Shown in pieces: positions 53,666-56,450 of a DNA stretch of 64,000 bases (within the stretch, counting starts at the first letter, position 1; every line of letters begins with the position of its first letter). The stretch is from positions 992,001-1,056,000 of the forward strand of contig NZ_AP028032.1 in the NCBI RefSeq assembly GCF_030296935.1. Direction: 5' to 3'. Source of the stretch: Coprobacter fastidiosus (GTDB lineage Bacteria > Bacteroidota > Bacteroidia > Bacteroidales > Coprobacteraceae). The notes under the pieces were generated by a model. It was not told the origin of the DNA, did no database searches, and saw nothing but the letters and a program-made list of their open reading frames with translations. Made by a program: the position numbers and the translations under genes.

Positions 53666-53738
53666 GGTGCCATAGCTCAGTTGGTAGAGCAAAGGACTGA
53701 AAATCCTTGTGTCCCCGGTTCGATTCCTGGTGGCACCA
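53666..53738 (+). tRNA. tRNA-Phe (GAA)
   Basis: 73 nt. Acceptor GGTGCCA pairs with TGGCACC, the anticodon stem-loop is AAGGACTGAAAATCCTT with GAA, and the T-arm is CCGGTTCGATTCC. CCA is not encoded. It appears to be the anchor of the small island downstream. Confidence 0.97.
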
Positions 53739-53762
53739 CTTTTTAAGAAAGAAAAACGATGT

Positions 53763-53989: not shown

Positions 53990-54256
53990 ATGGAAAGAAA
54001 AAGATTCAGCGTGTTGTTCTTCATCAAGCGTAGCAAACTGTTAAAAAACGGGGAAGCACCCGTGCGTGTGCGTGTCACTTATGACCGCCTATACGTGGAA
54101 CTTCAACTAAAGCGGAGCGTAAAAGTCCCACTTTGGTCGCAGGAAAAAGAGAATGCTGGGCATTCATCCACCCGAATGACGCAGCATTATGCGAAAGTAT
54201 TAGACCAAACGATACTAAGGGATATACAAGCCGTTGAGCAACAACTATCTGTATAA
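53990..54256 (+). pseudogene. Tyrosine integrase gene with its catalytic middle deleted
   Basis: From the ATG at 53990 the protein opens MERKRFSVLFFIKRSKLLKN and runs through the arm-type DNA-binding domain (APVRVRVTYDRLYVELQLKR, then VPLWSQEKE). At residue about 56 it jumps to NAGHSSTRMTQHYAKVLDQT, the C-terminal block with the box II His (in GHSS, usually LGH) and the catalytic Tyr of the same family. Roughly 280 residues, including the core-binding domain and the catalytic Arg-Lys-His/Arg part, are gone, yet the frame is kept. Bacteroidota integrases of this kind use tRNA genes as targets. It cannot recombine by itself. Confidence 0.85.
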
Positions 54257-54285: not shown

Positions 54286-54343
54286 ACTAATGCTCTCTAA
54301 AATTATGAGGAAAATTTTCCTCATAATTTTAGAGAGCATTAGT
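54286..54343. repeat. 58-bp perfect palindrome upstream of the XRE-peptidase gene
   Basis: Each arm is 29 bp (ACTAATGCTCTCTAAAATTA, then TGAGGAAAA) with no spacer, centred between 54314 and 54315. It separates the integrase remnant from the XRE-ImmA/IrrE module and lies about 10 bp before a second palindrome on the promoter. It could be an operator for a multimeric HTH protein, a hairpin terminator in both directions, or a structure left by a mobile element. Confidence 0.9.
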
Positions 54344-54352
54344 CTATTTCTT

Positions 54353-54381
54353 TATATTTGCAGAAAATTTTCTGCAAATAT
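54353..54381 (+). promoter_or_regulatory. Promoter embedded in a 28-bp perfect palindrome (probable auto-operator)
   Basis: TATATTTG at 54353-54360 fits the -7 consensus. 54354-54381 is an exact palindrome: ATATTTGCAGAAAA and its complement TTTTCTGCAAATAT, no spacer. It covers the -7 element, the likely start site (near 54367) and the first two bases of the ATG at 54380. A protein bound here would block transcription fully. The XRE domain of the gene's own product is the natural candidate. The leader would be only about 13 nt. Confidence 0.7.
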
Positions 54382-55576
54382 GGACAATATAGACATAGAA
54401 CTTAGTAAAGTAATTGATGCAGCTGTTCAATCTTCAATTGATATAGGTCAGGTTGCATCTCTAAAGGATTTATATAAAGAAAAGAAAAATTCACTAAACT
54501 TATCAGATAGACAGATTCAGAAAATTTTAGGAATGGATTCTAAAACTATAAATCCTATATTAAATGGAACTGCTAAACAAATCAATTTCATAAATGTAGT
54601 AAAATTGGCTCATTTTTTAGGTCTGTCTGTTAATGACCTAATAAAAGTTTACGTACCAGAATTAGCTCCTAAACAAATAGGAGAAATCCAACGAGCAAAA
54701 GAAGCAGGATATATCGTTGAAAATTTTGATGTATCTATCCTTATTAAGATGAAGTTTTTTAATTCCAATGCTTCATCTAAAGATATGAGTGATAAAATCA
54801 AACGTTTTTTTGACATTGATAATATTTACAGTTACTCGGAAAATTCTTTGCTTCCCGTTTTTAGTCGCTCTAAAAGAAATTCGAATGATTTAATGCGTAA
54901 TTTTTGGATACAATCTGCGTTCATCCAATTTAAATCTATTGCAAATCCCAATCCATACATAAGAAAAGAATTAGTTGAACTAATACCCAAAATTAGACCA
55001 TACACAAGAGATATAAAAAATGGTCTAATTAGAGTTCTGAAAGCACTATTTCGTACTGGGATCACAGTTATATATCAACCAAGTTTAGAAAAAATACAAG
55101 TTAGAGGAGCTACCATGATAATAAATGATAAACCATGTATTGTACTTTCTAATTTACAAAATAATTATCCTACATTATGGTTTACTCTTTTACATGAACT
55201 ACATCATGTACTTTTTGATTTTGATGAAATCAAAAAACAGACGTATCATATTAGCAATAATGAGGGAGACTTATTTTTAATGAATGAAGAACAAGCAGAT
55301 AATTTTGCTTGCGAATATTTATTAAATGAATCCCGATTAAAATTTGCATCAGGGTATATTACATCACATTATAATATTGAAAAACTAGCTAAAGAATGGG
55401 GAGTACACTCCTCTATTATATATGTAATGTATTGTTATAAAACCAACGAATGGGCTTTTTATAATAAATATATACCTAAAATGAATGAAGCCTTAGAGCT
55501 TATAAATACTCACCCATTTGAAAAAGAAACATTAATGGAATCAGTACAACAAATCAAAGAATTTTTATACAATTAA
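54380..55576 (+). CDS. XRE-family DNA-binding / ImmA-IrrE metallopeptidase fusion protein
   Basis: 398 residues from the ATG at 54380 (MDNIDIELSKVIDAAVQSSI). The frame opens 30 codons earlier, but only by reading through palindromes. Residues about 30-85 form an XRE-type helix-turn-helix (NLSDRQIQKILGMDSKTINP, then LAHFLGLSVNDLIKVY). The C-terminal half is a COG2856 zinc peptidase: HELHH at 272-276 in LLHELHHVLFDF and a downstream Glu in NEEQADNFACEYLLNES. Such proteins cut or sense a partner repressor (ImmA/ImmR) or act in toxin-antitoxin-like defence (for example RosmerTA). It is followed 2 bp later by an unknown gene. The region is much richer in A+T than its neighbours, in keeping with transfer. 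Confidence 0.88.
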   Translation: MDNIDIELSKVIDAAVQSSIDIGQVASLKDLYKEKKNSLNLSDRQIQKILGMDSKTINPILNGTAKQINFINVVKLAHFLGLSVNDLIKVYVPELAPKQIGEIQRAKEAGYIVENFDVSILIKMKFFNSNASSKDMSDKIKRFFDIDNIYSYSENSLLPVFSRSKRNSNDLMRNFWIQSAFIQFKSIANPNPYIRKELVELIPKIRPYTRDIKNGLIRVLKALFRTGITVIYQPSLEKIQVRGATMIINDKPCIVLSNLQNNYPTLWFTLLHELHHVLFDFDEIKKQTYHISNNEGDLFLMNEEQADNFACEYLLNESRLKFASGYITSHYNIEKLAKEWGVHSSIIYVMYCYKTNEWAFYNKYIPKMNEALELINTHPFEKETLMESVQQIKEFLYN

Positions 55577-55578
55577 TT

Positions 55579-56088
55579 ATGGAAGAAAAAAAGAAAAAAA
55601 AATCTCAGGAGGAATTAGAAGAACTCCAAAAAAAGCAAGAACAAGATTTAGAACGTACAGCAATTTTAATGAAAGCTGATGAAATCAAAGAAGAAACATT
55701 TGATTTTGATGTAAACGGTCAAATCGAACTCAAAAATGAGTTGGCAGATATGGTTTTAGAACAAATCGATGACCCTGAAGCTAAATATAATTTATATTAT
55801 AATGTTGTCAATTGTTTATTAAGAAAATATCTTCCAAAAGGCGATACATATAAAGATGCAAGAGATTTGATTTATGAAGAAAAGAATACATTTTTAACTC
55901 GTGGACACAGAAAAGATGCACAAGGTATAAGAGGAGCAGACGGAAGAATGTCCTATATTTCAGATATAAATGAGCTTGTTAACATTATCACTGAATGGAT
56001 TTCAAACAAAGGAACAATGTTTGATTTATATACTAAAATTAGGGATTTGAATATTTCTAAAGGATATGGTGCTTCACAGTCAAAATAA
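55579..56088 (+). CDS. Unknown 169-aa protein, partner of the XRE-peptidase
   Basis: Begins 2 bp after the stop of the XRE-peptidase gene, so translation is coupled. Residues 1-35 are almost only Lys, Glu, Gln and Leu (EEKKKKKSQEELEELQKKQE), a charged coiled-coil-like tail. The folded part (about 45-165) has FDFDVNGQIELKNELADMVL, YYNVVNCLLRKYLPKG, GHRKDAQGIRGADGRMSYIS and IITEWISNKG. No family is recognised and no signal or membrane segment is seen. It may be the substrate, antitoxin or effector of the peptidase. The evidence is the operon arrangement only. Confidence 0.75.
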   Translation: MEEKKKKKSQEELEELQKKQEQDLERTAILMKADEIKEETFDFDVNGQIELKNELADMVLEQIDDPEAKYNLYYNVVNCLLRKYLPKGDTYKDARDLIYEEKNTFLTRGHRKDAQGIRGADGRMSYISDINELVNIITEWISNKGTMFDLYTKIRDLNISKGYGASQSK

Positions 56089-56245
56089 AAAGAATAGAAC
56101 TATATATATACTCATAATCTCTATTTTAGCCTTTCTTTGTTTACACAGTTGCACTGTGGATATTGACCCTAAAATAGCTAATACAGCCTTTGGACTTACA
56201 ACTATAAAAACGAGAATATATAATAATGATTTTAAGTTTATGTAG
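56066..56245 (+). CDS. Small (59 aa) membrane or lipoprotein ORF overlapping the unknown gene
   Basis: ATG at 56066, preceded by AAAGGAT. The stop is at 56243-56245. MVLHSQNKKNRTIYILIISI continues through a helix to LAFLCLHSC, a possible lipobox with Cys29, then TVDIDPKIANTAFGL. It overlaps the end of the 169-aa gene by 23 bp in another frame. Basic N-terminus, hydrophobic core and Cys look like a real signal peptide. No family recognised. Confidence 0.5.
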   Translation: MVLHSQNKKNRTIYILIISILAFLCLHSCTVDIDPKIANTAFGLTTIKTRIYNNDFKFM

Positions 56246-56339
56246 TGGCATCTTCTGCATTATTGGAGGTATTATACTTACCATTTTAAGGTTTACATCA
56301 ATTGGATTATTGAAGGAACAGATTTTACGTCAAAATTAA
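56226..56339 (+). CDS. Very small (37 aa) hydrophobic peptide ORF overlapping the previous one
   Basis: ATG at 56226, stop TAA at 56337-56339. The peptide is MILSLCSGIFCIIGGIILTI, then LRFTSIGLLKEQILRQN: one transmembrane helix with a basic/polar tail. It overlaps the 59-aa ORF by 20 bp, again in a different frame, giving a chain of four abutting or overlapping ORFs. It resembles small membrane toxins or holin-like peptides only in shape. It ends exactly where the IS3-type remnant begins, so it could be truncated. Confidence 0.4.
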   Translation: MILSLCSGIFCIIGGIILTILRFTSIGLLKEQILRQN

Positions 56340-56450
56340 TAAATGCTTCTCCTTGTTTTACACGGTTAACAATAATGAGCCTCTGTTCGTAACTGTACTT
56401 CATAAAAAACACCCCAAAAGTTTTGAGTCTAACTTTTGGGGTGCACTTCA
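56335..56450 (-). mobile_element. End of an IS3-type insertion sequence (remnant)
   Basis: On the minus strand the terminal part shows a perfect 13-bp inverted pair CACCCCAAAAGTT (56410-56422) and AACTTTTGGGGTG (56431-56443), the layout seen at the start of many Bacteroidota IS3/IS150-like elements. Next is an ATG (56403-56401) with MKYSYEQRLIIVNRVKQGEA, the typical first residues of OrfA with its HTH. The similarity stops after about 23 residues, near 56335, where island sequence takes over. Everything downstream of the element is lost. 56451-56625 has no gene. Confidence 0.7.

Follow-up and report, generated by a model that had tools for sequence, protein, structure and literature searches.

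The locus analysed here raises the question of what two perfect palindromes, standing in tandem before the gene of an XRE/peptidase protein, do at this site in Coprobacter fastidiosus. The window, which is the whole stretch of 64,000 nucleotides analysed, contained the following features around them:

53666-53739, + strand: tRNA-Phe gene
53990-54256, + strand: tyrosine integrase remnant with an N-terminal Arm-DNA-bind_5 domain
54286-54343, no strand: palindrome 1, a perfect spacer-free inverted repeat of 58 bp (arms 54286-54314 and 54315-54343)
54286-54305 and 54324-54343: outer 20-bp arms of palindrome 1, read as the 3'-terminal hairpin/terminator of the integrase transcript
54306-54323, no strand: O1, the predicted upstream operator core TGAGGAAAATTTTCCTCA, in the middle of palindrome 1
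54353-54360, + strand: -7 element TATATTTG
54354-54381, no strand: palindrome 2, 28 bp and spacer-free, with the O2 core TGCAGAAAATTTTCTGCA inside it (54359-54376)
54380-55576, + strand: protein of 398 aa with XRE (lambda-repressor-like HTH) and Peptidase_M78 (ImmA/IrrE) domains
55579-56088, + strand: second gene (169 aa), directly downstream of the XRE/M78 gene and kept in relatives
56090-56353, + strand: third gene, a small membrane protein, decayed

The two spacer-free perfect palindromes, 10 bp apart, that the preliminary description had reported were confirmed; the arms of palindrome 1 are 29 nt each, 100% complementary, with 0 nt between them. No other spacer-free perfect palindrome in the 64-kb window is as long: the arms of these two are 29 and 14, and the next longest is 9. 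The maximum arm in 20 order-3 Markov sequences modelled on the window was 7-10, which agrees with the earlier judgement that chance is an unlikely origin for repeats of such length. As RNA, the 58-mer of palindrome 1 was predicted to fold at -40.2 kcal/mol (z -15.6).

Several trivial origins were considered. The same structure was present in five separate assemblies including the window, two of which are multi-megabase contigs, and an assembly artefact was thus ruled out. A dispersed repeat or MITE was ruled out because the genome itself holds no second copy of the hairpin. A search of known RNA families with the hairpin returned sub-threshold matches only, mostly microRNA precursors, since any long hairpin attracts such matches. 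The search of viral_contigs and phages found no close copy but one 62% relative, L087. The Phocaeicola sartorii contig L002 stops (position 1) within palindrome 2, which suggests that short-read assemblies may be interrupted at this point and hide such sites.

The protein encoded behind palindrome 2 is, judging from its sequence, a probable autorepressor. Its HELHH metal motif (HExxH) is intact, and its Peptidase_M78 domain exceeds the gathering score; HTH_19 and HTH_3 matched at E-values of 1.6e-5 and 1e-4, slightly under their gathering scores, and the nearest solved HTH was that of lambda CI. The autoregulated XRE/ImmA-IrrE (Peptidase_M78) repressors, namely DdrO/PprI, CapH/CapP and the XRE-peptidase antitoxins, likewise combine an XRE HTH with M78 and have dyads over their own promoter, one of which lies here on the -7 element. 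In contrast to these systems, the present protein is a single chain, and its two dyads stand at a fixed distance of 53 bp, the upstream one inside a long hairpin.

Both palindromes harbor at their centres the shared dyad TGNNGAAAATTTTCNNCA, with 14 of the 14 fixed positions matched in each, and only O1 and O2 score 13 or 14 of 14 within the window. The centre of O1 lies at -65 from the ATG and that of O2 at -12. Scanning with TGNNGAAAATTTTCNNCA found pairs 53 bp apart before the XRE/M78-peptidase gene in the window, L004 and L005 (97-98%), and also in L061 (77%), L006 (76%), L088 (76%) and L087 (62%); the spacing was 52 bp in L109 (41%). Because the motif was composed after inspection of these same sequences, the scan alone is not independent, and a motif-free search for two similar dyads is the fairer test. 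In that search, 53 ranked first in the window, L088, L061 and L087, and second in L006, behind the hairpin arms themselves. L109 again gave a spacing of 52, and L110 (34%) gave 63 bp with a different dyad sequence; in the other distant relatives (28-39%), the paired signal was near the shuffle background. At 10.5 bp per turn, 52-53 bp corresponds to about five helical turns and 63 bp to about six. Moreover, the close relatives have a -7-like element on or next to O2. A conserved dyad over the protein's own promoter, the mark of an XRE/M78 autorepressor, was thus found at 53 bp down to 62% and at 52 bp at 41%.

The best reading of these sequences is that O1 and O2 are two autorepressor operators, and the earlier suggestion of an auto-operator for the XRE domain gains support for the 18-bp centre of each palindrome, from the motif and from the 53/52-bp spacing in relatives. 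L061, L088, L087 and L109 lack long arms while possessing the dyad centres; what is conserved with the protein is therefore the centre. This distribution also bears on the idea that the whole 58 bp is a single extended operator for a higher-order repressor multimer. Such an operator would account for a sequence symmetric throughout and centred on O1, but the arms differ between copies with 97-98% identical repressors, the arms of L006 are wholly different while its 18-bp centre is kept, and the four relatives just named have the centre only, all of which makes the single extended operator very improbable.

Palindrome 2 had been described as covering the -7 element and two bases of the ATG. Its last two bases are indeed the A and T of the ATG at 54380, and it includes the -7 element, which matches the Bacteroides consensus TAnnTTTG (PMC7366714), except for the first base. 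It probably also spans the start site of transcription. The suggestion of leaderless-like expression did not hold: the -7 element at 54353-54360 would give a leader of roughly 13-17 nt, which is short and not leaderless, where the commonest 5' UTR of Bacteroides is 23 nt and 3.7% are under 10 nt (PMC7366714).

From these comparisons, the locus is probably an autorepressor gene with two phased operators, one of which would be nested in an insulating hairpin that separates the integrase gene from a mobile cargo operon. Operator and hairpin had been posed as alternatives; the evidence suggests both, one within the other. The XRE domain would bind the dyads O1 and O2, and since 53 bp is close to five helical turns, dimers on the same face of the DNA could contact each other. 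Helically phased repeated operators, as with lambda CI, suggest by analogy a cooperation between dimers, with the differences that only two dyads lie here near one promoter and that an M78 peptidase replaces the C-terminal domain of CI. Occupation of O2 would block the -7 element and the start site and so repress the operon. Relief of the repression may come from the peptidase or from a signal acting on it. The O1 dyad would have been expanded outward into the 29-bp perfect stem, which, when transcribed from the integrase side, may end the integrase transcripts and prevent them from running on into the cargo operon. The model provides a testable two-operator control for XRE-peptidase operons often carried behind integrases.

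Long arms around O1 were found in some copies only. The close copies (97-98%) belong to Phocaeicola sartorii, Bacteroides acidifaciens, B. fluxus, a further genome in the genus of B. fluxus and one metagenome bin. A comparison of related copies for compensatory changes, proposed earlier, was borne out in the five-copy alignment, where six stem pairs were altered on both sides. Stem covariation was 0.252 against 0.131 in shuffles (0/500 shuffles as high) and fell to 0.04-0.11 in slid registers, and the RNA folds of all five copies were -30 to -40 kcal/mol. The 5' arm differed at 10-25% of sites and 4-fold sites at 3-5%, a comparison resting on few events because there are five close copies and four distinct arm types. 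Variable sites made up 7/20 of the 5' arm and 89/1843 of flanks and genes (P = 3e-5); for both arms together against flanks and genes, P = 6e-11. Between copies, with the nearly identical pair L003/L059 left out, arm positions 5-29 carried 2-4 paired and 0-2 one-sided changes. Furthermore, the palindrome on O1 in L006 (76%) is 48 bp long and, although the 18-bp centre is kept, its arms are unrelated; their one mismatch, T.G, would remain a pair in RNA. The upstream integrase of L006 is only 28% identical over the aligned part. L089 (28%) offers a shorter, imperfect example behind an integrase.

That pairing is kept despite change faster than at 4-fold sites points to mutations which affect the two arms jointly. 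One such process, template switching, can make perfect stems in one event and yields compensatory changes (PMC8794818), and it is the established candidate for keeping the stem of palindrome 1 perfect, as far as these few copies indicate. Template switching in replication, copying one arm onto the other, would be the simplest account of a stem that stays complementary though changing fast. The outermost three arm bases are AGT in the window and GAC, GAG or GAA elsewhere; the clustered GAC-to-AGT difference makes the window's stem 3 bp longer, which is what one template-switch event would give. Hairpins evolving by template switching (quasipalindromes; PMC8794818, PMC7202029) show the same paired, clustered and fast changes that keep a stem perfect, and the present case differs from them in that the hairpin is bacterial and regulatory and contains an operator. 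The parts are of known kinds; their nesting and the fast yet paired change are unusual. The site offers a compact natural example of a regulatory palindrome that outpaces its neutral surroundings with pairing kept, and it makes template switching as a builder and keeper of hairpins testable in bacteria.

The same process could, however, have produced the outer arms without any selected function, the O1 dyad having seeded template switching and the arms being its mutational by-product. Perfect stems with compensatory changes are a known outcome of this process (PMC8794818), the fast paired change and the clustered lengthening of the window's stem fit it, and several relatives manage without arms. 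Against this account, long arms occur behind two unrelated integrases, and a long hairpin lacking the operator occupies this position ahead of other cargo. O2 is as good a dyad as O1 and yet is not extended past 28 bp, and single unrepaired arm mismatches persist in L005 and L059, so arm repair is not automatic. The by-product account is thus possible, though we regard it as unlikely.

The reading of the outer arms as a hairpin terminator or insulator between integrase and cargo is therefore favoured, though not proved, by the sequence comparisons. The integrase stop lies about 30 bp upstream of palindrome 1. Where this integrase has no cargo, a terminator-like hairpin directly follows its stop codon; in L002-L005, that hairpin follows the cargo operon, which lies between it and the integrase stop (where the contig holds the stop). 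The integrase cut off from its old hairpin by cargo needs a new end, and palindrome 1 lies where that end would fall. A sister integrase on the same B. fluxus contig, with other cargo, has a hairpin with 25-bp arms in the corresponding place, without the operator, whose arm resembles that of L003 (TTCTCCCTATAATTAT, TACTCCCTAAAATTAT); three other cargo arrangements (L134, L139, L117) had no such hairpin. The insulating hairpin proposed earlier thus finds support in the outer arms of palindrome 1, from their compensatory changes, their place behind integrases and the operator-free hairpin before other cargo.

The stem is stable and conserved by compensatory change, as a terminator stem would be, and palindrome 1 resembles the intrinsic terminator hairpins behind Bacteroides integrases in position and in this mode of evolution. 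Unlike those terminators, it has no loop spacer, extends over 29 bp, carries an operator at its centre and has a weak T tract that overlaps the next promoter. The full stem is followed by CTATTTCTTT, with 6 T in 8 bases starting 2 past the stem, a weak tail for an intrinsic terminator, and an intrinsic-terminator scan for stems of up to 20 pairs did not flag the + strand at palindrome 1. The link between long arms and an upstream integrase is suggestive only: it is seen in the window's group and L006, weakly in L089, and not in L062/L063, which have integrase neighbours and no long arms. L061 and L088 have a same-direction gene 85-89 bp upstream (stop to ATG), yet no long arms.

A more intimate arrangement would be a repressor-gated terminator whose stem is built around the repressor's own operator. 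The DNA bound by the repressor would then also be the DNA that forms the hairpin, and template switching would renew the stem faster than neutral sites change, with both functions kept. We consider this doubtful.

Across the window and its relatives, the XRE/M78 gene is preceded by an integrase or by an unrelated gene. The window's integrase remnant has an internal deletion of about 948 bp (junction at ~54152) with the frame kept. Similarity to a related mobile element (L108) starts at ~53726, inside the 3' end of tRNA-Phe, which is therefore the likely integration site; an attachment site at the palindromes was ruled out, as the element edge lies in the tRNA gene. The same boundary bears on whether the hairpin acts as DNA, either as a cruciform or folded single strand in element transfer or recombination or as a ligand of the M78 peptidase. 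The site does lie in a mobile element, perfect arms with no spacer could form pairs in single-stranded DNA just as in RNA, and activation by single-stranded DNA has been reported for the M78 relatives PprI and CapP (PMC10904395). The element boundary, however, is away from the hairpin, the hairpin has no other copy in the genome, and some relatives of the peptidase lack long arms. A role as DNA is accordingly the least probable of the alternatives.

Among defence systems, the best PADLOC match of the first protein was PD-Lambda-2_B (PDLC03982, E 2.7e-22, 77.6 bits), a component of PD-Lambda-2 (PMC9519451). The present operon differs from that system, since no HigB-like toxin gene was found directly upstream in the window or relatives, where an integrase or an unrelated gene stands instead, and the 169-aa protein had no PADLOC match, component C included, at E 0.1. 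In two Hymenobacter relatives, a P63C-domain protein occupies the second-gene position. The third gene has lost its start codon in the window, carries indels and is cut off at 56353; it is full length in L108 and apparently also in L002, L003 and L005. Similarity to relatives breaks off at ~56353 within this gene (window 56353-56450), and a hairpin with 13-bp arms at 56410-56443, possibly an insertion-sequence remnant, adjoins the break.

Integrases were also seen with other neighbours. In L062 and L063, a distant XRE-M78/second-gene pair lies between an integrase and apparent type I restriction-modification genes, a hint that the pair controls defence cargo or travels with it. The B. fluxus contig C87 (L144/L145) carries three related integrase ends over about 20 kb (at ~1.7, 12.8 and 21.7 kb), each preceding different cargo, of which the first two, judged by eye only, are nucleotidyltransferase-like and ART-like and the third is XRE-M78, and the region looks like an array of integrase-cargo units. 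Behind another related integrase, in L136, a hairpin with 17-bp arms is followed by one with 12-bp arms.
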